From Bacteroidales bacterium (lineage in GTDB: Bacteria > Bacteroidota > Bacteroidia > Bacteroidales > ML635J-15): a stretch of DNA of 52,209 nt. The notes beneath the pieces were generated by a model. It was not told the origin of the DNA. It saw only the letters and a program-made list of their open reading frames with translations, and made no database searches. Positions 4,447 to 29,004 of this stretch are shown here, piece after piece (position 1 is the stretch's first letter; each line of letters opens with the position of its first letter). A program made the translations under genes and the position numbers. The DNA is taken from positions 1 through 52,209 of the forward strand of contig QKHS01000021.1 in assembly GCA_003249955.1 (NCBI GenBank), written 5' to 3'.

Positions 4447-4479
4447 ATCTTAATTGTAAAATATTCTTCCCTGATTTAT

Positions 4480-5061
4480 TTACTTAATACTCTCCTCAGA
4501 AATTACAACTTCCCATTCCTGTATAATTCCACTTACAAAATCGAATTCTATAGGACTTGCAGAATACAACTCGCAATACGAATTGTCCTGAATAATAATA
4601 TTAGTAAATATCCCTGTATCTTTAAGGCTTGCATATATCTCTTTCTGCATATCATCATCAACAATTCCGGTAAATTTAAAACTTACCATGTATTGACCGT
4701 TTTCATAATATGACTTAACAAACTCGTTTCCAGATGTCCTGTTTTCAACAGAGTTATGGTAAAAGACATCATTAATCATATCCACAATCATTGCCTCAGT
4801 GACAGACTTGTCTGATGTAAACATACATTTCATAAGATCTGAAGAATCATAAAAAGAGAATTTTTGAATTTCCTCATTGCTCTCTAATTCTTTTACTATA
4901 ATTTGAGCATATTCTTCGTCAATATTTCCTGACAAAACAAGATAAGATGTTCTTGTATTATTTTCATAAACTTTAGATGCAGCAATTTCAAATGACTTGA
5001 TTTGAGCATGTACCCCAATTACCGATAAAACAATTATCGTCAATAAAAATATTCTTTTCAT
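4480..5061 (-). CDS. Small secreted protein, paralog 1 of 3 (two predicted ferredoxin-like halves)
   Basis: 193 residues with a signal peptide ending near VHA-Q (about residue 19). I do not recognise a named family. It is clearly paralogous to the proteins at 9412-9978 and 26079-26642: all share N-T-(R/K)-T, FSFY, KCMFTS and D-MIND(V/I) in the first half. The predicted order of strands and helices is beta-alpha-beta-beta-alpha in the first half and a similar, more diverged order in the second. One Cys lies at the equivalent strand of each half (KCMFTS; YCELYS). It is encoded 33 bp upstream of a giant secreted protein gene, so co-expression is likely. A candidate promoter on the minus strand (CTTG-N19-TAATTTTG) lies at 5115-5145. 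A role as periplasmic or surface partner of the giant protein is inferred from position only. Confidence 0.85.
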   Translation of the reverse strand: MKRIFLLTIIVLSVIGVHAQIKSFEIAASKVYENNTRTSYLVLSGNIDEEYAQIIVKELESNEEIQKFSFYDSSDLMKCMFTSDKSVTEAMIVDMINDVFYHNSVENRTSGNEFVKSYYENGQYMVSFKFTGIVDDDMQKEIYASLKDTGIFTNIIIQDNSYCELYSASPIEFDFVSGIIQEWEVVISEESIK

Positions 5062-5114
5062 AAATTAAATTCTCTTCTATTATTTCTAATACTCAATTCC
5101 CTTATCTCGACCAA

Positions 5115-5145
5115 CAAAATTAAACATTTTATACAATTTGCCAAG
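5115..5145 (-). promoter_or_regulatory. Candidate promoter of the small secreted-protein/giant pair
   Basis: On the minus strand CTTG (5145-5142), a 19-base spacer and TAATTTTG (5122-5115) fit the Bacteroidota consensus TTTG-N19-TAnnTTTG with one mismatch. The ATG at 5061 is about 54 bases further. Confidence 0.45.
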
Positions 5146-5502
5146 CTACAATCTTCGTTTTAACAATAATTGCAAACATTTTAACAAATGCTTTGACCCG
5201 TCGTATTCTTAATTATTTGGTTATCTTTGAGTTAGTGACGTAAAAAAAACTCGTTAGTTGTTACATTTTTATTAACAAAATATAAACATTAACAAACGCC
5301 ACTCTTATGCAAATACAGTTATCACAACAACTAAAAGCTGTATTTATCACAGTTGATCATATTTTTACTATATTATTGAATTTATAACAAAAAAGCAACT
5401 ATGTTAAGAAAAATACTGCATAATCATCGGAATTATCGTTTTTAAGCATTGTTTTCCTCAATGAAAAAGTCTTATGATACTCTCTGATTAAGAATGCAGG
5501 TT

Positions 5503-5534
5503 TCTCTGAATCATCAAATTTGATAATTCAGAGA
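5503..5534. other. 32-bp near-perfect palindrome in a long non-coding gap
   Basis: The half-site TCTCTGAATCATCAAA is followed at once by its reverse complement with a single mismatch. It lies in the 635-bp gene-free gap 5062-5696, about 440 bases upstream of the small gene at 5061. It has no T-tract, so it does not look like a terminator. The gap otherwise contains only a candidate promoter, a terminator and AT-rich sequence. Confidence 0.6.
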
Positions 5535-5646
5535 GCCGTATTTCAATCATAAAAAAACAGCAAAGAATAACATAATGTATGGACTTTCTCATAAAAAACG
5601 AAGCTATCTCATAACACAGATATTTGTATATACAACTGTGTGTGAA

Positions 5647-5676
5647 CAAAAAAAGCTGCCCATATTGAGCAGCTTT
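5647..5676 (-). terminator. Intrinsic terminator of the 1233-residue giant gene
   Basis: AAAGCTGC (5652-5659) pairs with GCAGCTTT (5669-5676). Read on the minus strand the stem is followed by a T-run. It starts about 20 bases past the stop codon at 5697. Confidence 0.8.
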
Positions 5677-5696
5677 CTGTAAACGGAGTAAAAAAA

Positions 5697-9398: not shown

Positions 9399-9411
9399 AG
9401 CTCAAACTTGT

Positions 9412-9978
9412 TTACCGGTTAGTTATTAATGAAATTTTTAAACCCAGATTCTCAAAGGCCTTTTCTATTTCCGGCATCTCTGTACCTTTTTTTAATTCCA
9501 GCTTACACACATTGTCCACATTGATATCGGCAGATATTACCCATCCATATTGCAACAAAATCTCAATAATCTGTTTTTTATGCATTTCGTCTTTTATTCC
9601 TTCAAGATGAAACTTCAACACCTCATCGTTTACAATATTTACAGGCTGCACATCTTTATCTTCCCGTATGTTTTCGGAAATTATATCATTAATCATATCA
9701 ACAATCTGCTTTCCGTCAACAGAAGAAACAGACGTAAACATACATTTAGACCTGTTTGTGTTGTCATAAAATGAAAAATGTTTAACATCCTGATTTACAA
9801 GCATTTCTTTTTCTATTACGGGTATAATATCTGACGGGATAATACCTTCTAACGTAATATACGACGTTCTTGTATTGTCATCGTATTCCTTAACAGCATC
9901 TGTTATAAATGACAATACCTGAGAATTCACATTCAGATACACGAATGCAAACAGAATAAACAGCAATCTTTTTTTCAT
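9412..9978 (-). CDS. Small secreted protein, paralog 2 of 3 (two predicted ferredoxin-like halves)
   Basis: 188 residues with a signal peptide ending near VNS-Q. It aligns along its whole length with the small proteins at 4480-5061 and 26079-26642. Conserved points are DDNTRTSYITLEG, HFSFYD, SKCMFTS and IVDMINDI. The second half has HLEGIKDEMHKKQI and VCKLELK, again with one Cys in the strand equivalent to KCMFTS. No transmembrane segment follows the signal peptide. It is only 13 bp from the start of the 1233-residue giant. A good promoter (TTTG-N20-TATATTTG) lies about 215-245 bases upstream at 10193-10224, giving a leader of about 200 bases. Function is unknown; an extracytoplasmic partner, chaperone or regulator of the giant is an inference from repeated linkage. 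Confidence 0.86.
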   Translation of the reverse strand: MKKRLLFILFAFVYLNVNSQVLSFITDAVKEYDDNTRTSYITLEGIIPSDIIPVIEKEMLVNQDVKHFSFYDNTNRSKCMFTSVSSVDGKQIVDMINDIISENIREDKDVQPVNIVNDEVLKFHLEGIKDEMHKKQIIEILLQYGWVISADINVDNVCKLELKKGTEMPEIEKAFENLGLKISLITNR

Positions 9979-10192
9979 AGCAAGGCGTTATTATACTAAC
10001 AATCTAAATTCTTACAATTGACGAATTTTTACCACATAGGTTGCTTTGTATAATTTAATAATTGTTTTGTCTGCAACAAAATAATTATATCTTTTCTCAA
10101 AAAACACAGATATCAACAGCTATCTGTATTATCATCATGCAAAAAAACTAAAAAATTTAAAAAGCGGCTTCGTCAAATCAATCTCAATTATG

Positions 10193-10224
10193 CAAATATA
10201 GGATTTTTTTTAATATATTGCAAA
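10193..10224 (-). promoter_or_regulatory. Candidate promoter upstream of small paralog 2
   Basis: On the minus strand TTTG (10224-10221), 20 bases and TATATTTG (10200-10193) match the Bacteroidota promoter consensus at every defined base. It lies in the 574-bp gene-free gap 9979-10552, which otherwise holds only AT-rich sequence and the terminator at 10405-10432. Confidence 0.5.
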
Positions 10225-10404
10225 TAATATAATTTTTAACACAATTAATGATTAAACAAAAAAGTTCGATATAATTACAATTTTCAGTTTATTAACACAT
10301 CCAAATTATAACGTATGTGTTTAACTATGAAATTATTTACAACACATAAGTTGTAAAAAACAATAACACCGGCTTGTTCACCATAAACTACATCAGCAAT
10401 TAAT

Positions 10405-10432
10405 ATAAAAAAAGGAACCTTTTGGTTCCTTT
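10405..10432 (-). terminator. Intrinsic terminator of the 1593-residue giant gene
   Basis: AAAGGAACC (10411-10419), loop TTTT, GGTTCCTTT (10424-10432), followed on the minus strand by a T-run. It lies about 120 bases past the stop at 10553. Confidence 0.8.
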
Positions 10433-10552
10433 ATAAATTTCGGGTTCAGTTTAAACAACCCTTAAAGTATGCAGCATTTATTTGTGTTATTTAAGCATTC
10501 TTTCACTATTCCGCTATCCGTTTTTCATAAAACTCTATTAACAATTGCAGTT

Positions 10553-13500
10553 CTAGTAAACAATAGAAACTGTACCGGTATAAGGATCTGTCCCGTTATT
10601 AAGGTTTATAAAATAAATGTATGTCCCGATAGCCACCCTGTTGCCGTTTTGTTTTGCATCCCAAGGATCATCATCTGACTTCGCAACAAATACAGACTGC
10701 CCCCATCTGTTAAATACCTGAATATTCGCACCTGGATAGTTCTTTATATTCCTTATTTCCCATACATCATTTATTCCGTCTCCGTTAGGACTTATTGCAT
10801 CAGGTATAATTACACAATCAAGAAATGATTCATTAAGCACGACTTTTCCAATTGTATAGCTGCAATCAAAATTGTCAGACACCCCAATTTCATAAGTTCC
10901 ATCTTTCAGACCTCCGAAAAGAGAAACCGGCATTTCGAGGCCGTCATAAAAATACTTATATGGTTCTGTCCCTCCGGATGCCACCACCTGAATATACCCG
11001 TCATTATTTCCCACACAGCTTGGATTCGACACCAAAACAGAAGCATCTAACTGAGACGGTTCATCAATATAAACCGAAGTGCTTGAATAACAATTATTAT
11101 TATCCCTTACAATCAACGTGTAATTACCTTTCGGCAACGAATTGATTTCCTGTCCGTTTGCCAGAACGGCACCGTCAGATACAGAATAATGATAAGGTTC
11201 CGAACCTCCGGTAGCCTGCATGCTTACTCCTCCGTCACTCATTCCGTAACAACTCACATTTGTCCTAGTAAACTCAAGATTAATACGTTCAGGTTGAGTA
11301 ACATCAAAATCCTGTGAAATTGAACAGTTCCTGCTATCAGTCACAACAACGGAATAATGTCCTGATGAAAGAGAATTAATTGAAGTTCCGCTTCCCGGAA
11401 CACTCCAGCTTATATTAAAAGGAGGAGCTCCTCCTGAAAGACCTATATTTATTTTACCATCACTTATTCCATAACAGGATGAATTTGTAACAGCGTAATC
11501 AAGTAGAATAGCATCAGGTAACGCTAATGTTGCATCGGCAATACCCTCGCACCCCCAATTATCTGTAACTGTTAACAAGAAAGTACCTGCATCAAGATTG
11601 CTTATTTCTGAAGCACCTGCTCCGTTACTCCACGAAAACTGCAACGGACTAACACCATTAAGAGATCTTCCTTCAAGAACCCCGTCAGGTATTCCGGCAC
11701 ATGAAACCGGTGACACAATATTTATATTTGCATTTATAACACCTGTTTTGCCTACCGTTGTACTTTCTTCTGCAGTACAGGAATTAGAATCTGTAACCGT
11801 AAGAGTATAAATCCCCGGAGCCAGTGCTGTCATGCTGCCTCCATAACCTGTCGAAGACCAGTTATAGCTATAGCCTGGTATTCCGCCAGTCACATCTGCA
11901 CTTATAGTACCTCCGGTTTCCCCGCAAACAGCATCTGTATGAGTAAGGTTAATGACAATCTCAGGTGGCTGATTAACAACAACCGAGGTATTGGCAATAC
12001 AATTATTCCCATCTTTAACCGTTAAGGAATAATTTCCAGGAGCAAGATTACTTATTACATAATCCGGCTGCGCATTGCTCCACAAATAATTATAATCACC
12101 GGTTCCGCCATCAGGACTTGCAGAAATGCTCCCGTCCGGAACCCCGAAACAACTTGCATTTGTTACCGAACAACCTACAGTAAGCAGATCGGGAGCATTT
12201 ACAAATACATTCCCTGTAGTCGGACACAAGTCTGCATCTGTTATTGTATATCCGAAACTAACATCTGAAGGTATTCCGCTACGGGAAAAATCAGTATTCC
12301 CATCCTCCCACAATATGGTATATGGTGAGTTTCCTCCTGCTGTTACATTTATGTCTGCGCTTCCTGTATAACCAAAACATAAAGCATCTGTCAGAGTTTC
12401 GACAATTGTCAAAGGAGCTGCTTGTGTAAGATTTACACTTGCAGTTGCAGTACAATCATTAGCTCCTGTAACTGTAACAATATAGACAGCCGGTGTGGTA
12501 AAATCGTTATCTGCTGTTGCCGGAGAAGCCCCTCCGTTCCAGCTATACGACACACCGCCTGTTGCAGTTAAACTTATAGACGGTACTGTGCATATAAATT
12601 GGTCTGTTCCGGTATTATTGGTAACAGAAACCGATGGAGGGGCAATATCCTGTGTTATAATTATGCTTTCCGTACCAGAACATCCGTTAGATCCGTTAAC
12701 AGTTACCGTATAGGTACCCGGAGTAGAAACTGCCGTACTTGCAATAACCGTAGCCGGCCCTCCTGTCCATGAATAACTTACCCCGCCTGTTGCTGTCAGT
12801 GATATAAAAGTCATAGAGCAGGTAAGTTCTGTTGTCCCAGAGTTATTTGTAATCCCATGCGGAAAAGTATCAATATCAATTGTCAAAGTTGTCCAGGCAC
12901 AAACTCCTCCGTCAGCAGTAAAAGTATAGGTTGTAGGAATTGTATTATCAATTGCGGGAGACCATGTTCCTGTAATGCCGTCATTGGATATAAGCGGTAA
13001 ATCAGGGATAGCAACTCCCGGACAGTATGAAGGAACCGGATCAAATACAGCCGGAGTATTCGGGTTTATTGTTATGGTCATAGTCGCATTTAACGCACAT
13101 TGGCCGGGATCAGGAGTAAAAGTATAAGTTGTGGTTGCCATATTATTTATTGCAGGTGACCAGACTCCTGTGACACCATCATTAGAGGTTACAGGCAATT
13201 CAGGAATTGTAACTCCTGCACAATATGGTCCTGCCTGTGTAAAATCCGGGGTAAAATACACACAGGGATTATAACATGTAAGATTGGCAACCCATCCTGC
13301 ATATTGAACAGAACCATCTGAAGTAAAACGGAATGTTAATGAACCGTCTGCCGCAGTAGAAGTAAAAGTCGGAATAGATGCACTACCCGTATAATTTCCC
13401 AGCAATGTAGCAGAAGTACTGTTCCCGTCATATATGTAAAGGTGTTCATAGCTATTCTCTGTAACAAAACTGGTAAAGCTCACCTGAACAACAGATCCCG

Positions 13501-15334
13501 GAGTTGAAGGATAAACTGTAAGTGTATAGTTTTCATTTGCCGCGTAATTACCTGTAGCTCCTCCCGAGTCATAAAATATACTGCCACAGGTATTAATAGT
13601 GCCTGTTTGCATATTTACAGTTGCAACCACATCAACTTCCGCAGCAGAAGATGTTGCAGATTCTCCGCTTGCCGTACATGTAACAACACATCTGAAATAT
13701 GTAACAGCAGATAAAGCTGCTGTAGTATAATTAGGTGTTGTAGCTCCTGTGCCACCTGTCACATTTGTGTATGGACCACCAAAAGATGCAGACTGCTGCC
13801 ATTGATATGTCATCCCCGATGCAACAGAAAAACCGGTCAGGCTTAAATTAGCAGTTGTTCCTATAGAAACCTGCTGAACCGCAGGAGAGGCAGACCCGGC
13901 TACAGGAGTTCCGGAACAAGGAGTAGAAGCAATTATAGTTATGCAATAATCCTCGGTTTCCCCCCATGTATATGCACTGGATGAATAATTTGTTGCCGTA
14001 GGAAAGGTCGTTTCAACAACCACTGCTCTCATACGCGTAACACCCTGTGTTGCCGTAACAGGAACAGTAAACGACCCGGTTTCGGTATGATTGCCCGATG
14101 CTGCTGCAGGTTGAGTATAAACCTGTTCTCCGGCATCTGCAAAATCCCCATCCTGATTCCAGTCAACATAAAGTTGAAATCCGTTATTATACGCTCCTCC
14201 GCAACTTGTTTGCGTAAGACTAAAATTTACCAGTTCCCCCAACTGAACTGTAGGTCCGGCAACAAAACCGGTATAATTGGAATATCTTGTAAGTACAGAT
14301 CCTGTCCCGGGAGCCAATGTTGAACATGTAGAACTATTGCTCATAGTACCTACAGTAACATTTGTAATTTCCTCATCTGCAGTACTGGATGCAAAAACAG
14401 CAGGATAAGTACCACACTCACATGCATTACCTGTAACACTGTAAGAAACAACATTTGATGTTGCTGATTCGCCGCTGTTTGTACAATTTACATATAACTG
14501 AAAATAAGTATCTGCTGTTACAGATGTAGAAAAATTAACGGTTGTTCCGCCAGGCACATCTGTCCAGGGCCCGGAAGAAGAGGATGATGATTGCCACTGA
14601 TAGCTTATCCCTGAGCCTACTGAAACTCCGGAATCTCCCAGAGTAAATGAAGCTCCTACACATCCTGTAGTTGCACTTATAGTTGCAGTACCTGGATCCG
14701 GCATTCCTGCACATGGGATAAGAGAGACAAAATCCAACTGAATATTGGGTCTGTTATAAGTTATTGTACCTGAAGGCGGAGAAGCCGGATCAGGATTTGT
14801 ACCGTCGCTGTAAAAATAAATTGACTGATAATTTGAACTGGTTGAAGTGCATCGCCATGTTGCAGAAGTCCCGTATCCTGCAACATTCTCATCAATGGCA
14901 ACAACCAGATTACCCCCTGTCCATATGTAAGGTGTAGTCAGTGTAATTGTCATCCACCCGGCAGAAGAAGGTAATACCACAGCGCCATTATAGACAGTCG
15001 TTAACGATGCTAAAGGAATCCAGTTGGTTGTCCCGGTAAAAATAGTCTGAGCAGTATTTCCTAAAAATACTGTCCATGTGCCGGTATTGTTAAGATTTCC
15101 TGATCCTGCCCAATAAAAGCGGATTGCCGTAATCTGATCTCCGGCAGAAACCCCTCCGGCAGTAATCTCAGCAGCAGTGTATATTTGCTGCGTGTAGTTA
15201 TACCCATAATAGGAATAAACAGGGTTATACGTAGTGGTAGTGGTAGCAGTTCCAATTGTAACTGTAGTTTGTCCGAAAACTGTAAATGCCAATCCCAGAA
15301 TCAGCATAAAAGTTAAAACATAATTTTTAATCAT
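10553..15334 (-). CDS. T9SS type B giant repeat protein, 1593 residues, without a small partner
   Basis: Signal peptide of about 21 residues (ends VFGQ). Residues about 22-200 form a beta-rich domain (AITAIRFYWAG-like strand, NLVVAIDEN). An Ig-like domain (about 210-305) leads to a GEVED-type domain (about 305-470, LYVDWNQDGDF, WGETEDYCITI). A second Ig-like domain (QWQQSASFGGPYT), a CUB-like domain (about 578-690, SGGATGNY, YEHLYIYDG), two GPYC repeats, two NNSGT/WNGG repeats and SprB-like repeats follow. The C-terminal sorting domain (IPDAISPNGDGINDVW, VFNRWGQSVF, DPWDAKQNG) ends at the stop. Unlike the three paired giants it lacks the NPAWYW/WGP-type domain, and no small paralog lies in the 366-bp gap upstream. 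Likely a T9SS-exported surface protein. Confidence 0.93.
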   Translation of the reverse strand: MIKNYVLTFMLILGLAFTVFGQTTVTIGTATTTTTYNPVYSYYGYNYTQQIYTAAEITAGGVSAGDQITAIRFYWAGSGNLNNTGTWTVFLGNTAQTIFTGTTNWIPLASLTTVYNGAVVLPSSAGWMTITLTTPYIWTGGNLVVAIDENVAGYGTSATWRCTSTSSNYQSIYFYSDGTNPDPASPPSGTITYNRPNIQLDFVSLIPCAGMPDPGTATISATTGCVGASFTLGDSGVSVGSGISYQWQSSSSSSGPWTDVPGGTTVNFSTSVTADTYFQLYVNCTNSGESATSNVVSYSVTGNACECGTYPAVFASSTADEEITNVTVGTMSNSSTCSTLAPGTGSVLTRYSNYTGFVAGPTVQLGELVNFSLTQTSCGGAYNNGFQLYVDWNQDGDFADAGEQVYTQPAAASGNHTETGSFTVPVTATQGVTRMRAVVVETTFPTATNYSSSAYTWGETEDYCITIIASTPCSGTPVAGSASPAVQQVSIGTTANLSLTGFSVASGMTYQWQQSASFGGPYTNVTGGTGATTPNYTTAALSAVTYFRCVVTCTASGESATSSAAEVDVVATVNMQTGTINTCGSIFYDSGGATGNYAANENYTLTVYPSTPGSVVQVSFTSFVTENSYEHLYIYDGNSTSATLLGNYTGSASIPTFTSTAADGSLTFRFTSDGSVQYAGWVANLTCYNPCVYFTPDFTQAGPYCAGVTIPELPVTSNDGVTGVWSPAINNMATTTYTFTPDPGQCALNATMTITINPNTPAVFDPVPSYCPGVAIPDLPLISNDGITGTWSPAIDNTIPTTYTFTADGGVCAWTTLTIDIDTFPHGITNNSGTTELTCSMTFISLTATGGVSYSWTGGPATVIASTAVSTPGTYTVTVNGSNGCSGTESIIITQDIAPPSVSVTNNTGTDQFICTVPSISLTATGGVSYSWNGGASPATADNDFTTPAVYIVTVTGANDCTATASVNLTQAAPLTIVETLTDALCFGYTGSADINVTAGGNSPYTILWEDGNTDFSRSGIPSDVSFGYTITDADLCPTTGNVFVNAPDLLTVGCSVTNASCFGVPDGSISASPDGGTGDYNYLWSNAQPDYVISNLAPGNYSLTVKDGNNCIANTSVVVNQPPEIVINLTHTDAVCGETGGTISADVTGGIPGYSYNWSSTGYGGSMTALAPGIYTLTVTDSNSCTAEESTTVGKTGVINANINIVSPVSCAGIPDGVLEGRSLNGVSPLQFSWSNGAGASEISNLDAGTFLLTVTDNWGCEGIADATLALPDAILLDYAVTNSSCYGISDGKINIGLSGGAPPFNISWSVPGSGTSINSLSSGHYSVVVTDSRNCSISQDFDVTQPERINLEFTRTNVSCYGMSDGGVSMQATGGSEPYHYSVSDGAVLANGQEINSLPKGNYTLIVRDNNNCYSSTSVYIDEPSQLDASVLVSNPSCVGNNDGYIQVVASGGTEPYKYFYDGLEMPVSLFGGLKDGTYEIGVSDNFDCSYTIGKVVLNESFLDCVIIPDAISPNGDGINDVWEIRNIKNYPGANIQVFNRWGQSVFVAKSDDDPWDAKQNGNRVAIGTYIYFINLNNGTDPYTGTVSIVY

Positions 15335-15683: not shown

Positions 15684-15700
15684 ATCATTTTATAATGATT

Positions 15701-18700
15701 TTACTCTACTATTGTCACGGTTCCGGTGTATGGAGGTGTTCCGTTATAGAGGTTAATTACATACAAATATGTTCCTACAGGTACTTTTTTACCATTGTAT
15801 TTTCCATCCCACGGATCCTCATCAGGACGGCCAACAAATATTTCCTGCCCCCATCTGTTGTAAACATAAATATATGCTCCCGGGAAAAGTTCAATATTTT
15901 CAATAATCCATGTATCATTTACCCCATTTCCGTTTGGAGTAAATGCGTTAGGAATTTTGAGACAATCTACCTGTTCGTCAGTAAGTACAGTATTCCCTAA
16001 ACTGAACAAACAATTATTTGCATCAGTAACAACAATATCATAACTTCCGTTTATCAAACCACTGATATAAGGGATGTCAATAAAATTTCCGTTCCACCCG
16101 AACAAATATGGTTCTGTCCCTCCTACAACACTAATCTGAATGTACCCGTCATTATTGCCGATACAGCTTGGAGAATAAGAGATATAAGATGCCGAAATTT
16201 CAGAAGGCTCTGTTATTATAATGTTATCTGAATCAGAGCAACCGTGACTATCCTCTACGGACACTACATATTCGCCGGCAGTCAGGCTATAATGAGAGCA
16301 TCCTTCCCCATAAGTACTTCCGTCAAATATCCTGTAACCATACGGAGTTGTACCGCCGGCAGCATCCATCATTACAGCTCCGTCATAATTGCCATAGCAA
16401 CTTATATTGCTTACCATTTCGGAAAGTACCAGTTTATCAGGTTGTGTTACAGTGTAATCTCCTTGTATTGTACAACCTCCCTGATCTGTAACAACAAGTG
16501 AATAGTCCCCTGCTGTCAGATTTTCTATTGCAGATCCTGATGACGGGACATTCCAGTTATAAACATATGATGATGAACCTCCGCTTACAACGACATTTAC
16601 AGCTCCGTCACTATATTCAAAACAGCTCACATTTGTTACTGTTCCTGCAAGCTGCATTGATGGAGGATCTGCAAGATCTGCAATTACAGTCCCGACACAA
16701 CCCCAGTCATCAGTTACTCCTATAATATAAGTTCCTGCTCCGAGATTTTGAATATATGGACTACCAATCAAGCTGTTGTTTAATGTATATGACAAATCTC
16801 CTACCCCGTTAGAGCTTGATGCCAACAAACTTCCATCTGTATAGCCCGGACAACTAATACCATGAAGTTCCGTAACAGATGCGTTTATATTTCCTGTTGT
16901 TCCAATCACTACAGATTGATTGGCAACACAATCATTATCATCGGTAACAACAACAGAATAATTCCCCGGATCTAAATTCGCAATATTATTACCTGTTTGG
17001 ATGTTAGACCATAAAAAATCATAATTTGGGGTTCCTCCAATTACAGACGCAAACACTGATCCTCCTGAGCCGCCGCATTGGGCAGGGGTTGGATTAAGAT
17101 AAACCTGCAGAGCATTTGGCTGAGTAATGGTAATGTCTGCTGTTACTTCACAATGTTTATAGTCAGTTACTGTTACCGAATATGTTCCTGCGGGAAGATC
17201 ATCCGGGTTCTCACCAGACACACTGTTATTCCAGGCATATGAGTAAGGATCTGTGCCTCCTGAAACAGTTGTCGTTATTTCTCCGTTTGCATCATTAAAG
17301 CAACGAACATTTACTCCTGTTAATGAAACAGTCAATTCTTCAGGCTCTGTAATAGTAATACTTCTTGTTGCCATACAGTTATTCTGATCGGTAACAGTAA
17401 CAGTAAATGTTCCTGCAGATAGTTGAGTTGCAAATCTACTGTTAGTACTATTCGAATCATCCCAGATATAATCATAAAGCGGAGTTCCTCCTATAGCTGT
17501 TGCTGTTGCACTACCGTTCGACAATCCGTTACATGTTACGTTATTATTAAGGGCAACAGATAAATCTAAAACATCAGGTTCTCCAACATTCACAGACACA
17601 TCGTCAGCACAGCCGTTAACATCTGTTATTGTGTAAGTATATGTGCCGGCAGTAACGGTAAATGTGCCGGTGCCGGAATATGGAGTTGTGCCACCTGAAC
17701 CTGTCACGGTTACAGTAGAACTTCCGCCGTTACATAAGATTGCTGTTGCTGATGAAGCGGCTGTTAATATTGTCGGTTCTGTTACCGTAACCGAGGTTGT
17801 TGCTGTACAGCCATTGGCATCTGTTATTGTGTAAGTATGTGTGCCGGCAATGACAGTAAAAACTCCGATACCTGAATATGGAGCAGTACCACCTGAACCG
17901 GTTACTGTTACTGTTGAACTTCCGCCATTACATGAGATTGCTGTTGCTGATGAAGCGGCGGTTAATATCGTCGGTTCTGTTACCGTAACTGAGGTTGTTG
18001 CTGTACAGCCGTTGGCATCTGTTATTGTGTAAGTATGTGTACCGGCAGTGACGGTAAATGTACCGGTTCCGGAATATGGAGTTGTGCCACCTGAACCGGT
18101 TACGGTTACAGTAGAACTTCCGCCGTTACACAAGATTGCTGTTGCTGATGATGCGGCTGTTAATATTGTCGGTTCTGTTACCGTAACCGAGCTTGTTGCT
18201 GTACAGCCATTGGCATCTGTTATTGTGTAAGTATGTGTGCCGGCAGTTACGGTAAATGTACCTGTTCCTGAATATGGAGTTGTGCCACCTGAACCGGTCA
18301 CTGTTACTGTTGAACTTCCGCCATTACATGAGATTGCTGTTGCTGACGATGATGCTGTTAATACAGCAGGTTCAGTAACCGTAACTGAGGTAGTTGCAGT
18401 ACAGCCATTGGCATCTGTTATTGTGTAAGTATGTGTACCGGCAGTAACAATAAATGTCCCTGTTCCTGAATATGGAGTTGTTCCTCCTGAACCGGTTACA
18501 GTTACAGTAGAACTTCCGCCGTTACATGAGATTGTTGTTGCTGACGAAGTAGCTGTTAATATTGTCGGTTCTGTTACCGTAACTGAGGTTGTTGCTGTAC
18601 AGCCGTTAGCATCTGTTATTGTGTAAGTATATGTGCCGGCAGTAACAGTGAATGTTCCGGTGCCGGAATATGGAGTTGTTCCGCCTGAACCGGTTACGGT

Positions 18701-20608
18701 TACAGTAGAACTTCCGCCATTACATGAGATTGCTGTTGCGGATGAAGAGGCTGTTAACATTGTCGGTTCTGTTACGGTAACAGAGGTTGTTGCAGTACAG
18801 CCGTTGACATCTGTTATTGTATAGGTATGTATACCGGCAGTGACAGAGAACGTTCCAATGCCGGAATACGGAGTTGTTCCACCTGAACCGGTTACTGTTA
18901 CTGTTGAACTTCCGCCATTACATGAGATTGCTGTTGCGGATGAAGCGGCGGTTAATATCGTCGGTTCTGTTACCGTAACTGAGGTTGTTGCTGTACAGCC
19001 GTTGGCATCTGTTACTGTATAAGTATGTGTGCCGGCAGTTACGGTAAATGTGCCGATACCGGAATATGGAACGGTGCCTCCTGAACCAGTCACGGTTACT
19101 GTTGAACTTCCACCGTTACATGAGATTGCTGTTGCGGATGAAGAGGCTGTTAATATAGAAGGTTCTGTTACCGTAACTGAGGTTGTTGCAGTACAGCCAT
19201 TGGCATCTGTTATTGTGTAAGTATGTGTGCCGGCAGTAACAATAAATGTCCCTGTTCCTGAATACGGAGTTGTTCCGCCTGAACCGGTTACAGTTACAGT
19301 AGAACTTCCGCCATTACATGATATAGCTGTTGCTGATGAAGCGGCTGTTAATATTGTCGGTTCTGTTACCGTAACTGAGGTTGTTGCTGTACAGCCGTTG
19401 GCATCTGTTATTGTGTAAGTATGTGTACCTGCAGTGACGGTAAATGTACCGGTTCCGGAATATGGAGTTGTGCCACCTGAACCTGTAACGGTTACTGTTG
19501 AACTTCCGCCGTTACATGAGATTGCTGTTGCGGATGAAGAGGCTGTTAATATTGTCGGTTCTGTTACTGTAACAGAGGTTGTTGCTGTACAGCCGTTGGC
19601 ATCGGTTATTGTATAAGTATGTGTACCTGCAGTGACGGTAAATGTACCGGTTCCGGAATATGGAGTTGTGCCGCCTGAACCGGTTACAGTTACTGTTGAA
19701 CTTCCGCCGTTACATGAGATTACTGTTGCGGATGAAGCGGCTGTTAATATTGTCGGTTCTGTTACCGTAACTGAGGTTGTTGCTGTACAGCCGTTAGCAT
19801 CGGTTACTGTATAAGTATGTGTGCCGGCAGTTACTGTAAATGTCCCGATACCGGAATATGGAGCAGTGCCACCTGAACCGGTTACAGTTACTGTAGAACT
19901 TCCACCATTGCATGAGATTGCTGTTGCGGATGATGCGGCTGTTAATATTGTCGGTTCTGTTACCGTAACTGAGGTTGTTGCAGTACAGCCGTTGGCATCG
20001 GTTATTGTATAAGTATGTGTGCCGGCAGTGACAGTGAATGTTCCGGTGCCGGAATACGGAGTTGTTCCGCCTGAACCGGTTACAGTTACAGTAGAACTTC
20101 CGCCATTGCATGAGATTGCTGTTGCTGATGATGCGGCTGTTAATATTGTAGGTTCCGTTACTGTAGCCGAGGTTGTTGCAGTACAGCCGTTAGCATCGGT
20201 TATTGTATAAGTATGTGTGCCGGCAGTGACAGTGAATGTTCCGGTGCCGGAATATGGAGCGGTGCCACCTGAACCGGTTACAGTTACTGTAGAACTTCCG
20301 CCATTACATAAGATTGTTGTTGCGGATGAAGCGGCTGTTAATATTGTCGGTTCTGTTACTGTAACCGAGGTTGTTGCTGTACAGCCGTTGGCATCTGTTA
20401 TTGTGTAAGTGTGTGTGCCGGCAGTCACGGTAAATGTCCCTGTTCCTGAATATGGAGTTGTACCGCCTGAACCGGTCACGGTTACTGTTGAACTTCCGCC
20501 GTTACATGAGATTACTGTTGCGGATGAAGCAGCTGTTAATATTGTCGGTTCTGTTACTGTAACCGAGGTTGTTGCAGTACAGCCGTTAGCATCGGTTACT
20601 GTATAAGT
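15701..20608 (-). CDS. Broken giant T9SS protein, C-terminal part (after a 5-bp deletion)
   Basis: This frame continues the gene at 20586-26012 after a frameshift at 20610/20611; the only in-frame start-like codon nearby is a GTG at 20479 inside a repeat, so it is probably not an independent gene. It encodes 15 further 66-residue SprB-like repeats (CNGGSSTVTVTGSGGT, PYSGTGTF, TYTITDANGC). Diverged SprB-like repeats follow (CNGLSNGS, CFNDANGE, CFEYSDGA and others). The end is a complete T9SS type B C-terminal domain (IPNAFTPNGNGVNDTW, YVYNRWGQEIF, DPWDGKYNGK). With 5 bases restored the whole gene is exactly 3439 codons including stop (3438 residues). As sequenced, the N-terminal part cannot carry its sorting signal. 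Confidence 0.85.
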   Translation of the reverse strand, partial: TYTVTDANGCTATTSVTVTEPTILTAASSATVISCNGGSSTVTVTGSGGTTPYSGTGTFTVTAGTHTYTITDANGCTATTSVTVTEPTILTAASSATTILCNGGSSTVTVTGSGGTAPYSGTGTFTVTAGTHTYTITDANGCTATTSATVTEPTILTAASSATAISCNGGSSTVTVTGSGGTTPYSGTGTFTVTAGTHTYTITDANGCTATTSVTVTEPTILTAASSATAISCNGGSSTVTVTGSGGTAPYSGIGTFTVTAGTHTYTVTDANGCTATTSVTVTEPTILTAASSATVISCNGGSSTVTVTGSGGTTPYSGTGTFTVTAGTHTYTITDANGCTATTSVTVTEPTILTASSSATAISCNGGSSTVTVTGSGGTTPYSGTGTFTVTAGTHTYTITDANGCTATTSVTVTEPTILTAASSATAISCNGGSSTVTVTGSGGTTPYSGTGTFIVTAGTHTYTITDANGCTATTSVTVTEPSILTASSSATAISCNGGSSTVTVTGSGGTVPYSGIGTFTVTAGTHTYTVTDANGCTATTSVTVTEPTILTAASSATAISCNGGSSTVTVTGSGGTTPYSGIGTFSVTAGIHTYTITDVNGCTATTSVTVTEPTMLTASSSATAISCNGGSSTVTVTGSGGTTPYSGTGTFTVTAGTYTYTITDANGCTATTSVTVTEPTILTATSSATTISCNGGSSTVTVTGSGGTTPYSGTGTFIVTAGTHTYTITDANGCTATTSVTVTEPAVLTASSSATAISCNGGSSTVTVTGSGGTTPYSGTGTFTVTAGTHTYTITDANGCTATSSVTVTEPTILTAASSATAILCNGGSSTVTVTGSGGTTPYSGTGTFTVTAGTHTYTITDANGCTATTSVTVTEPTILTAASSATAISCNGGSSTVTVTGSGGTAPYSGIGVFTVIAGTHTYTITDANGCTATTSVTVTEPTILTAASSATAILCNGGSSTVTVTGSGGTTPYSGTGTFTVTAGTYTYTITDVNGCADDVSVNVGEPDVLDLSVALNNNVTCNGLSNGSATATAIGGTPLYDYIWDDSNSTNSRFATQLSAGTFTVTVTDQNNCMATRSITITEPEELTVSLTGVNVRCFNDANGEITTTVSGGTDPYSYAWNNSVSGENPDDLPAGTYSVTVTDYKHCEVTADITITQPNALQVYLNPTPAQCGGSGGSVFASVIGGTPNYDFLWSNIQTGNNIANLDPGNYSVVVTDDNDCVANQSVVIGTTGNINASVTELHGISCPGYTDGSLLASSSNGVGDLSYTLNNSLIGSPYIQNLGAGTYIIGVTDDWGCVGTVIADLADPPSMQLAGTVTNVSCFEYSDGAVNVVVSGGSSSYVYNWNVPSSGSAIENLTAGDYSLVVTDQGGCTIQGDYTVTQPDKLVLSEMVSNISCYGNYDGAVMMDAAGGTTPYGYRIFDGSTYGEGCSHYSLTAGEYVVSVEDSHGCSDSDNIIITEPSEISASYISYSPSCIGNNDGYIQISVVGGTEPYLFGWNGNFIDIPYISGLINGSYDIVVTDANNCLFSLGNTVLTDEQVDCLKIPNAFTPNGNGVNDTWIIENIELFPGAYIYVYNRWGQEIFVGRPDEDPWDGKYNGKKVPVGTYLYVINLYNGTPPYTGTVTIVE

Positions 20609-20744
20609 ATCCGGCAGTGACAGTGAATGTTCCTGTTCCGGAATACGGAGTTGTTCCGCCCGAACCGTTTACTGTTACTGTTGAACTTCCCCCGTTACAT
20701 GAGATTGCTGTTGCAGATGAAGTAGCTGTCAATAAAACAGGTTG
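17582..20744 (-). repeat. Tandem array of 16 SprB-like units, 198 bp each, one unit 193 bp
   Basis: The marker CTTCC(G/C)CC lies at 17721 and 20493, exactly 14 x 198 bases apart. The next marker is at 20686, only 193 bases further, which locates a 5-bp deletion in the first unit of the gene. Units are nearly identical in DNA and protein, far more alike than the SprB repeats downstream of them, so the array looks recently expanded or homogenised. Confidence 0.93.
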
Positions 20745-23700
20745 AACCAATGTTGTACCTGTAATAGCCTGACAGCCATTAATATCTGTAATAGTAATAT
20801 TGTAAGTTCCGCTTGTCAGACCTGAAACTGTATATGTATTTACAGGATTTGAAACAGAGCCGGCTCCCCAGTCAATAAGATAATTTGCCGTTCCTCCTGT
20901 TATCGTAACATTAATAGATCCGTCAGAGTTCCCATTACAAAGAGGATTTGCTGCAACAACTGAACTTGCAGACATTCCTCCTATATCAGCTATATTTACT
21001 ACCTGAGTAGTGGAGCACATATTTACATCCTGAACAGTAACATTATATGTTCCGGCCATAAGAGATGATGCTGTTCCTCCTGCAACTCCACCTGCAGTTC
21101 CCGGCCAAATGTAAGTATATGGGGCTATCCCATCTGCCCCGTAAACTGTTGCAGAACCAGGAGTTGCACAATTCTGATCAGCTATTGCCGTTATACCTGA
21201 AGTTATAGTCAATGCGTCTGTAATAGTGATATTTGCCGTCGAAGTACATCCGTTTGCTGCTGTAACTGTAACTGTATAGCTTCCGGCTGAAGTTAATGTA
21301 TTGCTTGCTGTCAATGGTGTAGAACCGCCGCTCCATGAATATGACGTACCTCCTGTAGCGGTGACATTAATCGATAACACACTGCATGTTATTACTGTTG
21401 TCCCCGTATTATTTGTTATCGCTGCTGTGGGCGGAGTGATATTTTGAGTAATCGTAATACTTGATGTTGCTGTACAACCATTAGCTGCAGTTACGGTCAC
21501 AGTATAAGTTCCGGGTGTTGTAAGGGTATTCCCTGCGGTTGATGGTGTTGATCCGCCCGACCATGCATAAGTTCCGCCACCGGTTGCGGTTACGGATATT
21601 GATGTAGTTGCACAGGTTAAAACTGTTGTGCCGCTGTTATTGGTTATCGCTGCTGTTGGTGGAGTGATATTTTGAGTAATCGTAATACTTGATGTTGCTG
21701 TACAACCGTTGGCAGCAGTTACTGTTACCGTATAAGTCCCGGGTGTTGTAAGGGTATTCGCTGCAGTTGATGGTGTTGATCCGCCCGACCATGCATAAGT
21801 TCCGCCACCGGTAGCGGTTACGGATATTGATGTAGTTGTACAGGTTAAAACTGTTGTGCCGCTGTTATTGGTTATCGCTGCCGTGGGTGGGGTAATGCTT
21901 TGTGTAATCGTAATACTTGATGTTGCTGTACAACCATTGGCAGCAGTTACCGTTACCGTATAAGTTCCGGGTGTTGTAAGGGTATTCGCTGCAGTTGATG
22001 GTGTTGATCCGCCAGACCACGCATAAGTTCCGCCACCGGTAGCGGTTACGGATATTGATGTAGTTGTACAGGTTAAAACTGTTGTGCCGCTGTTATTGGT
22101 TATTGCCGCTACGGGTGGGGTAATGCTTTGTGTAATCGTAATACTTGATGTTGCTGTACAACCATTAGCTGCGGTTACGGTCACAGTATAAGTTCCGGGT
22201 GTTATAAGGGTATTCGCTGCGGTTGATGGTGTTGACCCGCCCGACCATGCATAAGTTCCGCCACCGGTTGCGGTTACGGATATTGATGTAGTGGTACAGG
22301 TTAAAACTGTTGTACCGCTGTTATTGGTTATTGCCGCTGTGGGCGGAGTAATATTTTGCGTAATCGTAATACTTGATGTTGCTGTACAACCATTAGCTGC
22401 GGTTACGGTTACAGTATAAGTTCCGGGTGTTGTAAGGGTATTCGCTGCGGTTGATGGTGTTGATCCGCCCGACCAGGAATAAGTTCCGCCACCGGTTGCA
22501 GTTACGGATATTGATGTAGTTGCACAGGTTAAAACTGTTGTGCCACTATTATTGGTTATCGCTGCGGTGGGTGGAGTAATACTTTGTGTAATCGTAATAC
22601 TTGATGTTGCCGTACAACCATTAGCTGCGGTTACGGTTACAGTGTAAGTCCCGGGGGTTGTAAGGGTATTCGCTGCGGTTGATGGTGTTGATCCGCCCGA
22701 CCATGCATAAGTTCCGCCACCGGTTGCGGTTACGGATATTGATGTAGTTGCACAGGTTAAAACTGCTGTGCCGCTGTTATTGGTTATCGCTGCTGTAGGT
22801 GGGGTAATGCTTTGTGTAATCGTAATACTTGATGTTGCCGTACAACCGTTGGCAGCAGTTACCGTTACCGTATAAGTTCCGGGTGTTGTAAGGGTATTCC
22901 CTGCGGTTGATGGTGTTGACCCGCCCGACCATGCATAAGTTCCGCCACCGGTTGCGGTTACAGATATTGATGTAGTGGTACAGGTTAAAACTGTTGTACC
23001 GCTGTTATTGGTTATTGCCGCTGTGGGCGGAGTAATATTTTGAGTAATCGTAATACTTGATGTTGCTGTACAACCATTAGCTGCAGTCACGGTCACAGTA
23101 TAAGTTCCGGGTGTTGTAAGGGTATTCGCTGCGGTTGATGGTGTTGATCCGCCCGACCAGGAATAAGTTCCGCCACCGGTAGCAGTTACGGATATTGATG
23201 TAGTTGCACAGGTCAAAACTGTTGTGCCGCTATTATTTGTTATTCCCGCTGTGGGCGGAGTGATATTTTGAGTAATTGTAATGCTTGATGTTGCTGTACA
23301 ACCATTGGCGGCTGTTACAGTTACAGTATAAGTTCCGGGTGTTGTAAGGGTATTAGCTGCAGTTGATGGTGTTGATCCGCCTGACCAGGAATATGTCACG
23401 CCACCGGTTGCTGTTACGGATATTGATGTAGTTGCACAGGTTAAAACTGTTGTCCCGCTGTTATTGGTTATCGCTGCTGTGGGTGGGGTAATATTTTGCG
23501 TAATCGTAATACTAGATGTTGCTGTACAACCATTAGCTGCAGTTACGGTTACCGTATAAGTTCCGGGTGTTGTAAGGATATTCGCTGCAGTTGATGGTGT
23601 TGAACCTCCTGACCATGCATAAGTTCCGCCACCGGTAGCAGTTACGGATATTGACGTAGTAGTACAGGTTAAAACTGTTGTTCCGCTGTTATTGGTTATA

Positions 23701-26012
23701 GCTGCTGTAGGCGGAGTGATATTTTGAGTAATCGTAATACTTGATGTTGCTGTACAACCATTAGCTGCAGTTACGGTCACAGTATAAGTTCCGGGTGTTG
23801 TAAGGGTATTAGCTGCGGTTGATGGTGTTGATCCGCCCGACCATGAATAAGTTCCGCCACCGGTAGCAGTTACGGATATTGATGTAGTTGCACAGGTTAA
23901 AACTGTTGTCCCGCTGTTATTGGTTATCGCTGCGGTTGGCGGGGTAGTATTTTGTGTGATGGTAATACTTTCAGTATCAGTACAAATATTATTTGCAACA
24001 GTTACAGTATAGGTTGCAGGACTCGAAAAAGTATTTGCGGCAGTGCTTGTTGATGACCCTCCGCTCCATGTATAAGTACCTCCACCTGTAGCGGTTACAG
24101 ATATTGGATTAACAAGACATGTTAAAACTGTGGTGCCGGTATTATTAGTTATCCCGGCTGTTGGATAAGTGTACACATCAACATTTGTTGTAACGGGAGC
24201 ACTGCTTACTCCACCGACAGTAATTACAAGAGAATAAACTCCGGCCATAGCGGTTGTGACATTTGTTCTGGTAGGCTCCATCAATGTAGAAGTCCAACCG
24301 TCAGGCCCTGTCCATGCATAAATCGCCCCCGCAGTAGGATTACTTACATATAATTCGAGTGTTTGTCCTACACATAACGGCCCATTATTAGTTATAGGAG
24401 GAGCAACAATACCACAATTAGTAGAGCCTGCTCCTGATGTTTGTACGAAACTGATATTTGTTGAGACATTTGCATAGTTGGTAATCAGCATAACATAAAC
24501 ATCTCCTGATTGAGTATTATATATGCTTGCTGTCTCATATGCAGCAGAACTGTAACTACAGTCAACAATTTCTCCAAAAGGATAAAAAGTGGGGTCAGAA
24601 GTATTATTGGGACATGTAGAACAACTGGATATCGGAATTGTTGAGCATGCGGTAGGCAAATCGCTGTATGGACCCCATGCAATAAAATCCACATCTGCAC
24701 CACTTGTTATCTCAATAATAATATCTCCGGGGTTATCTATCTCCATCCAGTACCATGCCGGATTAGGCGTAGAATAGAGACATCCGATATGTCCCATATC
24801 CGGTTCATCAACAGCAGCAGGGAAAGTATATGAATTATCCGTGCAGAAAGGCGAACTGGCAGGACAATCTGTAGTTAACGGATTCGGGCATGTAATTGAA
24901 ATCTCATAGCCCGCAGTTGCTGTTGTGCTGTAATTGTCTACAATAAAGTAGTAAGTTGTTCCGGCTGTCAGAGTCGGGGTTTGCGTTCCGCTTCCCCAAC
25001 ATGAACCTATTATGTTTGTTCCTGTATTTCCGCATGAACTCATTAAAAAGAAATCAGGATCTCCTGAAGTTGTATTACCGGTAAGAGTATGAACACCGGT
25101 GGTAGTGGCCGTAAAAGAATAAACAACCTCGTCACCTGCACCCCATGAACAACCTGTATAAGAACTCCAATCGCCGGCACCTGCCAGAAGATTTCCGCTG
25201 TAAACAGTCCCGCATACCATTGAAATTACAGACGAACAAGGCCCTGAGTTCGGAACACAACTAATAGTGAGATTGATTCCGGCACCATCAACAGAACTGT
25301 CTGAATGGAACAATACAGTTAAAGCCCCTGTCGGATCACTCGAAGTTAACGACGGGACTGCTGTACCCATATAGTAAGTTCCCAATAAAGTTCCGCCGGT
25401 ACCAACACCATTATAAATACTTACATAATCACAACAAGACTCACCTGATGTTGTTCCTGAAATCTGGATCAGATTGCCGGCAGTACCCGGATATATCACG
25501 CTATACCCATCCGAACTGTTTATATAATTACCGGAAGCTCCGCCCGAATCATACAAATTACCGGAACAAACACTATATGAATTATTCCCGGTTGACGGAA
25601 CCGTCATCCCTCCTCCCGAACAACCCGAACAGGCAATTGTGGAAACACCGCATGACGTTGCTGTTCCACAGGACGAATTTGTGGAATAGTGAATATAATA
25701 TGTTCCTGAAACAGTTGCAGTAAAGGTTAAAGGAGCATTGCCTGATGCCACGACAGTGCCATCATAAGTTCCGCTATGTACTGTAATATACCCGCCCAAA
25801 TCATAAGTAGCAATATAAGTTTGTCCGGCAACAAACCCGGATACAGTGCTGTACTCTGTCTGATAATTACAGGTACTTATCTGAACGACTGTACCGTCCG
25901 AAGGTGCTGTCGCAGAACCGTATGAACTTGTATTTGTACATTGGGAATACAGGTCTGACAAACTTAAAAATAACATTCCAAAAGCAAACAGTAAACAGGT
26001 AAATCTTTTCAT
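20586..26012 (-). CDS. Broken giant T9SS protein, N-terminal part (1808 residues, frameshifted end)
   Basis: Signal peptide of about 23 residues (ends LYSQ). The N-terminal domain (about 24-130) matches that of the 1233-residue giant. A CUB-like domain (about 135-245), a PPC-like domain (about 255-375) and the WGP-type domain (about 380-530, PFCTDNSYTFPA, NPAWYWMEI, DVDFIAWGPY) follow. An Ig-like domain (NNGPLCVGQ) leads to about 13 Ig-like 76-residue repeats (NNSGTTVLTC, WSGGSTPST, TAANGCTATSS) and two diverged SprB-like repeats. The first 66-residue array unit begins and then shifts frame after FTVTAG, adding a nonsense tail YLYSNRC before the stop. Restoring the bases CACAC on the coding strand gives the expected AGTHTYTVTDANGC. 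The start is 66 bp downstream of small paralog 3, so it forms the third pair. Confidence 0.9.
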   Translation of the reverse strand: MKRFTCLLFAFGMLFLSLSDLYSQCTNTSSYGSATAPSDGTVVQISTCNYQTEYSTVSGFVAGQTYIATYDLGGYITVHSGTYDGTVVASGNAPLTFTATVSGTYYIHYSTNSSCGTATSCGVSTIACSGCSGGGMTVPSTGNNSYSVCSGNLYDSGGASGNYINSSDGYSVIYPGTAGNLIQISGTTSGESCCDYVSIYNGVGTGGTLLGTYYMGTAVPSLTSSDPTGALTVLFHSDSSVDGAGINLTISCVPNSGPCSSVISMVCGTVYSGNLLAGAGDWSSYTGCSWGAGDEVVYSFTATTTGVHTLTGNTTSGDPDFFLMSSCGNTGTNIIGSCWGSGTQTPTLTAGTTYYFIVDNYSTTATAGYEISITCPNPLTTDCPASSPFCTDNSYTFPAAVDEPDMGHIGCLYSTPNPAWYWMEIDNPGDIIIEITSGADVDFIAWGPYSDLPTACSTIPISSCSTCPNNTSDPTFYPFGEIVDCSYSSAAYETASIYNTQSGDVYVMLITNYANVSTNISFVQTSGAGSTNCGIVAPPITNNGPLCVGQTLELYVSNPTAGAIYAWTGPDGWTSTLMEPTRTNVTTAMAGVYSLVITVGGVSSAPVTTNVDVYTYPTAGITNNTGTTVLTCLVNPISVTATGGGTYTWSGGSSTSTAANTFSSPATYTVTVANNICTDTESITITQNTTPPTAAITNNSGTTVLTCATTSISVTATGGGTYSWSGGSTPSTAANTLTTPGTYTVTVTAANGCTATSSITITQNITPPTAAITNNSGTTVLTCTTTSISVTATGGGTYAWSGGSTPSTAANILTTPGTYTVTVTAANGCTATSSITITQNITPPTAAITNNSGTTVLTCATTSISVTATGGVTYSWSGGSTPSTAANTLTTPGTYTVTVTAANGCTATSSITITQNITPPTAGITNNSGTTVLTCATTSISVTATGGGTYSWSGGSTPSTAANTLTTPGTYTVTVTAANGCTATSSITITQNITPPTAAITNNSGTTVLTCTTTSISVTATGGGTYAWSGGSTPSTAGNTLTTPGTYTVTVTAANGCTATSSITITQSITPPTAAITNNSGTAVLTCATTSISVTATGGGTYAWSGGSTPSTAANTLTTPGTYTVTVTAANGCTATSSITITQSITPPTAAITNNSGTTVLTCATTSISVTATGGGTYSWSGGSTPSTAANTLTTPGTYTVTVTAANGCTATSSITITQNITPPTAAITNNSGTTVLTCTTTSISVTATGGGTYAWSGGSTPSTAANTLITPGTYTVTVTAANGCTATSSITITQSITPPVAAITNNSGTTVLTCTTTSISVTATGGGTYAWSGGSTPSTAANTLTTPGTYTVTVTAANGCTATSSITITQSITPPTAAITNNSGTTVLTCTTTSISVTATGGGTYAWSGGSTPSTAANTLTTPGTYTVTVTAANGCTATSSITITQNITPPTAAITNNSGTTVLTCATTSISVTATGGGTYAWSGGSTPSTAGNTLTTPGTYTVTVTAANGCTATSSITITQNITPPTAAITNNTGTTVITCSVLSINVTATGGTSYSWSGGSTPLTASNTLTSAGSYTVTVTAANGCTSTANITITDALTITSGITAIADQNCATPGSATVYGADGIAPYTYIWPGTAGGVAGGTASSLMAGTYNVTVQDVNMCSTTQVVNIADIGGMSASSVVAANPLCNGNSDGSINVTITGGTANYLIDWGAGSVSNPVNTYTVSGLTSGTYNITITDINGCQAITGTTLVQPVLLTATSSATAISCNGGSSTVTVNGSGGTTPYSGTGTFTVTAGYLYSNRC
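21215..24175 (-). repeat. Tandem array of about 13 Ig-like units, 228 bp each
   Basis: ATCGTAATAC recurs at 21451 and 21679 (228 bases) and onward. About 11 central units are nearly identical and the outermost units are diverged. Each unit encodes 76 residues with a NNSGTTVLTC start and a NGCTATSSITITQ end. One Cys near the start and one near the end could form a disulfide. Confidence 0.9.
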
Positions 26013-26078
26013 GGCTAACTATTTATGTTGAATTTATTCTTTATAAAATCTCAATGCCCCAAAAGCAAATATTAAAAA

Positions 26079-26642
26079 TCATTTAATGCTTGCAGGGTTT
26101 ATTACGACATTAAGCTTGTCCAGAATAATCTGAACATATTCAGGAGTTATTTCCTGTTTAACAATTATTTTACAATCAAAACCATTTACAACAGCATTTT
26201 CTATCTGAGAATCTTTCATCAGCACTTCAGCAATCTGCATCCTTTGCAAGTCACTTGTAATTCCGTCTATCTGAAAAAACAGTTCCTGTCCTGTCGAATT
26301 AGTCCAGACATTTACAAATCTGCCACTATTCATGTTGTTATCGATAATATCATTTATCATCTGAACAACCATTTCTGCATCAACTGACCGCTCTGATGTA
26401 AACATACACTTGCTTAAATCTGCTTTATTATAAAAAGAAAAATGATTTATCTGCGGATTTGAAATCAACTCCTGTGTAATAATTTCTTTCATTGAGGCAT
26501 CAATACTAGCATCAAATTCCAGATAAAATGTTTTTGTATTATCTGCATACTCTTTACTTGACACAACACGATAAGAATTTATCTGACCTGTACTGTAACC
26601 GGCAATAGATAAAGTCAAAAATAATAAAAATAGATTTCTCAT
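26079..26642 (-). CDS. Small secreted protein, paralog 3 of 3 (two predicted ferredoxin-like halves)
   Basis: I choose the ATG at 26642 (187 residues) over the in-frame upstream codon at 26681, because MRNLFLLFLTLSIAG starts a normal signal peptide ending near STG-Q and the length then matches the two paralogs. Shared signature: DNTKTFYLEF, HFSFYN, SKCMFTS, VVQMINDII. In the second half FQIDGITSDLQRMQI and DCKIIVK correspond to the other copies, again with a single Cys in the same strand. It is 66 bp upstream of the broken giant. A TAAATTTG element on the minus strand (26801-26794) could be the -7 box, but no good -33 box is spaced correctly. No known function. Confidence 0.86.
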   Translation of the reverse strand: MRNLFLLFLTLSIAGYSTGQINSYRVVSSKEYADNTKTFYLEFDASIDASMKEIITQELISNPQINHFSFYNKADLSKCMFTSERSVDAEMVVQMINDIIDNNMNSGRFVNVWTNSTGQELFFQIDGITSDLQRMQIAEVLMKDSQIENAVVNGFDCKIIVKQEITPEYVQIILDKLNVVINPASIK

Positions 26643-28978: not shown

Positions 28979-29004
28979 TACAGAAAAATTTGATTTCCAC
29001 AATA

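Follow-up and report, generated by a model that had tools for sequence, protein, structure and literature searches.

Gene Pairs at the Locus

The window, by which we mean the whole analyzed stretch of 52,209 nucleotides, covers positions 1 to 52,209 (forward strand) of contig QKHS01000021.1 in assembly GCA_003249955.1 of a Bacteroidales bacterium and corresponds to contig C72 of this 4.7 Mb genome. It contains the following features:

4480..5061, minus strand: small exported protein 1, 193 aa, tandem HMA-like domains
1..4446, minus strand: giant partner 1, CUB and fn3 domains, at least 1482 aa (gene continues beyond the window)
9412..9978, minus strand: small exported protein 2, 188 aa
5697..9398, minus strand: giant partner 2, 1233 aa, SprB repeats and CHU_C type B sorting domain
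26079..26642, minus strand: small exported protein 3, 187 aa counted from the ATG at 26642
20586..26012, minus strand: giant partner 3, 5' part, 1808 aa, out-of-frame end inside a repeat
15701..20479, minus strand: giant partner 3, 3' part, SprB repeats and CHU_C type B sorting domain
20589..20618, minus strand: 30-base repeat stretch at the frame break of giant 3; the next four stretches have 35 bases
10553..15334, minus strand: contrast giant of the same kind with no small gene upstream; CUB, GEVED, SprB, CHU_C
36239..40939, minus strand: contrast giant with no family member upstream; PKD, SprB, CHU_C

The preliminary description had placed three small paralogs on the same strand directly upstream of giant genes, and both their coordinates and their distances to the giant ATG (33, 13 and 66 bp for pairs 1, 2 and 3) proved right. 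The frame of small protein 3 is open to an ATG at 26681, but its signal peptide begins at 26642. The three small proteins are mutually related with 35–36% identity (BLASTP; E 7e-27 to 1e-32), and in a multiple alignment small proteins 2 and 3 share 31 and 36% identity with small protein 1. The pairing with three giant genes also stands, though not the intactness of all three: giant 3 consists of two frames, of which 15701-20479 carries on the repeats of 20586-26012, with a 5-base shortfall in the tandem repeat. This frame break may be an assembly fault in the repeat or a real loss. The view of the giants as T9SS proteins holds for giants 2 and 3, as a C-terminal sorting domain is present in 5697-9398 and 15701-20479, while that of giant 1 lies beyond view because the gene is cut off by the window end. 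The contrast giant 10553-15334 sits within the interval 4480-26642 over which the three pairs had originally been described, and the ORF upstream of the other contrast giant encodes 559 aa (41000-42679) and is not a family member. In a scan of positions 4300-10700, no terminator-like site was found between small gene and giant in pairs 1 and 2, and one was found at 10432-10411, where it separates pair 2 from the unpartnered giant, with a total of such sites near the shuffle level (5 vs 3.7).

Sequence and Predicted Fold of the Small Proteins

A signal peptide is visible by eye in the small proteins. The three window proteins have no TIGR04131 or TIGR04183 match that would denote a sorting domain, and nothing above cut-off in Pfam or NCBIfam. 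Weak matches occur for P0001 (N-terminus of NCBIfam T9SS_sortase_N; E 0.011, score 15.8 against a cut-off of 40) and P0003 (PRK12303; E 0.010), and the relatives show scattered weak single-member matches in the family libraries, the best with an E-value of 4e-4.

AlphaFold models of small protein 3 (pLDDT 83.9, 3 sequences) and small protein 1 (pLDDT 88.6, 8 sequences) both display two tandem ferredoxin-like domains of the beta-alpha-beta-beta-alpha kind, with a pTM around 0.5 that leaves the relative placement of the domains uncertain. The best Foldseek match for both models is formed by the tandem HMA domains of CopA (2rml; E 3.4e-5 and 8.9e-4), and the tandem HMA domains of ATP7B are also among the best PDB fold matches. 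Superposition of the whole models is weak (TM about 0.35–0.42, rmsd about 12), and the likeness to HMA rests on single domains, for which the target TM-scores amount to about 0.6–0.8. The beta-alpha-beta-beta-alpha-beta fold of the HMA family is found in the predicted models. ACT domains of aspartokinase and RNA polymerase subunits, which we take to be ferredoxin-like folds as well, rank more closely behind HMA in the second of these Foldseek searches. The two domains are probably products of an internal duplication, given a profile match between the N- and C-terminal domain in a single comparison (E 2.6e-5, probability 75%), and the C-terminal domain matches the one-domain relatives, again in a single profile comparison (E 1.5e-11, probability 97%). 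The FSFY and KCM strands belong to the best-conserved parts of the first domain, which would fit a binding edge.

A fold of this kind raises the question of a metal-binding or metal-delivery protein that loads the giant, a role for which the tandem domains of CopA and ATP7B as best fold matches speak. Yet, the CxxC copper/metal site occurs in none of the 66 listed members, and in two of the 97 members of a wider set (L255 and L261, both class-level) when its presence is scored regardless of position in the fold. In addition, Pfam HMA (PF00403) has no match in the three window proteins and matches one out of 11 members below cut-off (E 0.11), and 11 members of the type B form (see below) have no cysteine beyond residue 18. 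Without a CxxC site or a Pfam HMA score near the cut-off, a metal chaperone was rejected, and we regard metal delivery to the giant as highly improbable.

Forms and Distribution of the Family

Three forms of the small protein were distinguished. The small proteins of the window are of type A and contain two domains. The other two types are built from a single domain, followed in type B by a variable tail and in type C by the tail motif TGNxxxDxxxYxxxKxxWIxxNPExY. The window's own genome encodes three type A and four type C genes. A first scan of genome contigs returned nothing and a second one gave five relatives, named as metagenome-assembled members of the Bacteroidales or Bacteroidota. Profile A2 is matched in 23 out of the 31 genomes of the window's GTDB family, a number that includes other forms caught by the same profile; matches over nearly the full two domains occur in eight of the 31. 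The type C profile is matched in 15 of these genomes, and the union of both profiles covers 27. At the order level, A2 is matched in at least 16 of 393 genomes, a lower bound since at most eight candidates were scored per genome. Among 395 genomes of the class, with at most seven candidates scored per genome, the wider type C profile A7 is matched in at least 36, mostly via the tail, and several class-level relatives have no HMA-like domain by eye.

An M13-peptidase-like gene (by eye) at 26927-29002 precedes pair 3, and the same gene is found before the type A small genes in L102 and L104, with which the locus of pair 3 looks syntenic.

Linkage to Long Open Reading Frames

Family members scattered without giants, the situation named in the preliminary description as speaking against a functional unit, were looked for and the opposite was found. 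In the family/order (Bacteroidales) set, 58 of the 59 testable members lie directly upstream of a long ORF on the same strand, as opposed to 4 out of 83 other ORFs of 100–270 aa in the same stretches and the window. Among more distant Bacteroidia (class-level set), this is the case for 31 of 35 members, with 8 out of 53 in the control; an earlier pooled control under a stricter rule gave 11 out of 139. A long ORF was defined as directly downstream, on the same strand and at least 480 aa long or open at the stretch end, and open-ended ORFs under 480 aa account for five of the 58 and two of the 31 cases. The stretches around the matches were taken regardless of their neighbors. The gap between the small gene and the long ORF has a median of 19.5 bp and ranges from -23 to 158 bp (58 family/order members).

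The family/order set comprises 66 members of at least 30 bits, of which four are fused and three lie at a contig end, leaving the 59 testable ones. L137-L139 (weak order-level matches) and L127 and L128 (by score) were left out of this count, and the weak matches G049, G001:C266, G016:C4 and G063:C78 are not among the stretches counted. For the class-level set, with a floor of 22 bits, 38 stretches were taken from 44 places; L249, L254 and L265 yielded no member, resulting in the 35 counted.

The small gene comes first in all testable members except L236 and L246, where a tail-motif small gene lies directly downstream of another ORF; in L246, the end of this preceding ORF resembles that of a type A cargo (by eye). 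L167 has no separate giant: at 2486-3247, the small-protein domain shares a reading frame with the final ~135 residues of a 2780-class giant, reflecting either a natural deletion or an assembly collapse. In L267, the next ORF encodes 368 aa, and in L268 one short gene intervenes. Two loci, L145 and L155, have short neighbors that align to 2798 and 1813 residues of giants; judged by these alignments, the neighbors are interrupted giants.

Such linkage might also arise if both genes were mere neighbors, i.e., if the pair was duplicated as a block and kept together by descent or by a shared promoter while the products have no contact. The members are indeed related by descent, so that the counts are not independent and Fisher values for the linkage are not independent tests. 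Against this reading, the linkage holds across many genera and without exception in 36 of the 40 clusters obtained at 40% identity, the giants differ strongly in size and domain content, and fusions occur, making neighborhood without contact quite unlikely.

The genes further upstream bear on another possibility, namely that the small protein is a signaling part that would detect the export of the giant or signal it to a sigma/anti-sigma pair. Among the 28 type C loci of the family (L140-L167), 13 have a gene 11–34 bp upstream whose product ends in a sorting-domain-like tail (by eye). Moreover, contig C65 of the window's own genome (L142, L200) carries a sigma-70 gene (Pfam, L200), followed by a CHU_C gene (anti-sigma-like by eye) that directly precedes a type C small gene with its ~2780-aa giant. 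However, neither the window pairs nor the 3700-aa type B pairs (L111, L114, L116-L124) nor the 1224-aa giant class have such a gene within 40 bp on their upstream side, and we consider a signaling role unlikely.

Fusions between Small Domain and Giant

In four loci (L108, L109, L112 and L115), the small domain is fused to a giant or to an open-ended long ORF. In L109, a 1642-aa ORF starts with a signal peptide (by eye), continues with the small-protein domain and has CHU_C (Pfam) at its end, while the 1632-aa ORF of L112 has the same beginning (signal peptide by eye) and a type B sorting motif (pattern) at its end. L108 and L115 begin like these two and are open-ended. Fusion in some loci and strict adjacency in others argue that the small part and the giant act together.

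These fusions also favor a different division of labor, in which the small protein is exported along with the giant and works only outside, as the tip or ligand-binding part of a two-part adhesin, with no chaperone function. As the domain is found within giants that end in a sorting domain (L109, L112), it can probably pass the translocon, and the window giants carry domains of adhesin type (CUB, GEVED, SprB). A surface subunit devoid of any chaperone function would give rise to the same linkage and fusions. Nonetheless, lacking a sorting signal, the separate form could only leave by hitch-hiking, and its gene comes first in the operon. We know of no hitch-hiking co-export of a partner without sorting signal in the type IX system. 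A role confined to the surface is therefore possible but, in our assessment, doubtful.

Sorting Signals of the Giants

The longest complete downstream ORF encodes 3776 aa, and size classes lie near 1224 and 2780 aa; open-ended ORFs reach 3967 aa. Out of 44 complete downstream ORFs, 25 ends were hand-picked and 20 scanned (L102, L232, L239, L251 and L258 were left out, and the ends of L232, L239 and L258 have no sorting domain by eye). Each of the 20 has a match to a T9SS sorting-domain model with E ≤ 0.01; the curated cut-off is exceeded in 16 cases, 11 of type A and five of type B. The occurrence of both sorting types among partnered giants indicates that the partner does not follow the sorting signal; the small protein is thus unlikely to be a signal-reading shuttle, the role of PorV or SprF. 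Clustering the N-termini of 91 downstream ORFs for a docking domain gave one loose cluster of 82, likely due to low-complexity links, and no shared docking domain was resolved in these regions.

The unit is not universal for giants. The own genome has 42 type B sorting-domain matches, of which four are in giants with a family member in front and 38 are not. A profile search of 27 stretches that precede other type B proteins (28 were taken, L180 being too short; the start of the cargo frame is uncertain in L176, L195 and L198) found no family member, and the small protein was rejected as a general T9SS factor. Since most type B cargo proteins of this genome and two giants of the window have no small gene, the latter is not needed for type IX export as such.

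A PorP/SprF-like shuttle was likewise rejected: the small proteins have no Pfam match and an alpha/beta predicted fold, and the 13 PorP/SprF matches of the own genome are all on contigs other than that of the window. By coordinates, seven type B proteins are immediately followed by a PorP/SprF gene, and their surroundings yielded no family member. The two arrangements, with a family member ahead of the cargo gene or a PorP/SprF gene right after it, thus appear mutually exclusive, which is no more than suggestive at such small numbers. The partnered giants of the window are 'orphan' type B cargo in the sense of the excerpted text of PMC12618676.

Other small exported proteins were seen in the own genome. 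In L175 (contig C14) and L192 (C18), a different one of ~190–210 aa is encoded 2–6 bp upstream of a type B cargo, possibly representing another partner family. In L183 (C54), a 137-aa exported protein is encoded 7 bp upstream of a giant with a PorP/SprF gene downstream.

Comparison with Known Systems

The preliminary description knew of no named two-gene system of this kind, and our literature search agrees: within the full-text literature searched, a scope to which most subscription papers and all preprints are external, no description of the pair was found by title or start of the abstract. One article with a suggestive title (PMC9950754) was discarded as a precedent, as the subject of its consulted part is polysaccharide and lipopolysaccharide genes.

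The closest parallels differ in kind. According to the excerpts of PMC9143113 and PMC12618676, the pairs SprB-SprF and Fjoh_3952-Fjoh_3951 also have a cargo-specific partner gene adjoining a large type IX cargo gene. SprF is, however, a beta-barrel of the outer membrane that the type B signal requires and whose gene lies downstream, whereas the partner in the window is a small soluble protein, HMA-like by prediction, that is encoded upstream and belongs to a family whose cargo may bear a type A or a type B signal. HMA domains such as CopZ and the tandem N-terminal domains of CopA resemble the small proteins in predicted domain fold and tandem arrangement; the small proteins differ in being exported, lacking the CxxC metal site and scoring below the Pfam HMA cut-off. 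SkpA has a fold unrelated to that of the small proteins. In the available part of PMC10994853, SkpA is a periplasmic chaperone homologue in the extended type IX translocon that aids type IX export, and it is a translocon component required for several cargoes, while the small protein gene is paired with one. For the T7SSb nuclease EsaD, small partner proteins help to export one large effector (PMC10653861, as excerpted), though in another secretion system and with other proteins.

Proposed Role and Implications

That small protein and giant form a functional unit, as originally proposed for the window, is supported more widely than was claimed at the time, by the linkage in 58/59 and 31/35 members, four fusions and sorting domains at 16/20 downstream ends. 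From these sequence patterns, the small protein is probably a dedicated, so far undescribed helper or subunit of the giant. More specifically, we give about even weight to the small gene product being a cargo-specific partner or escort that binds the adjoining giant in the periplasm. Made just before the giant, the small protein would meet it in the periplasm and bind it through protein-protein contacts of its sheet, perhaps involving the FSFY and KCM strands. It would thereby maintain this very long repeat protein in an export-competent state up to its uptake by the type IX translocon, and it may leave together with the giant and stay at the surface as a subunit. One mechanism may not fit all members, as the class-level relatives were mostly found through the tail and several have no HMA-like domain by eye.

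In a broader formulation, towards which we lean slightly, type IX cargo systems of two genes would form a widespread, undescribed class in Bacteroidia. Their small soluble protein, with HMA-like domains devoid of the metal site and/or a short NPExY tail motif, would be an obligatory escort for one giant with any sorting signal and might be exported along with it as a subunit. How proteins of 1200 to 4000 residues stay export-competent in the periplasm before they reach the type IX translocon is, to our knowledge, poorly understood. The helpers PorV, SprF and SkpA act at the signal or the pore, as far as the source excerpts describe them. If the proposal is true, a cargo-paired soluble partner would add a missing step in type IX export. 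Giant adhesin systems could then also be recognized in genomes by members of the family, pieces of the giants could be purified with the small soluble partner as a handle, and the HMA-like fold would serve as a bacterial protein-binding module.
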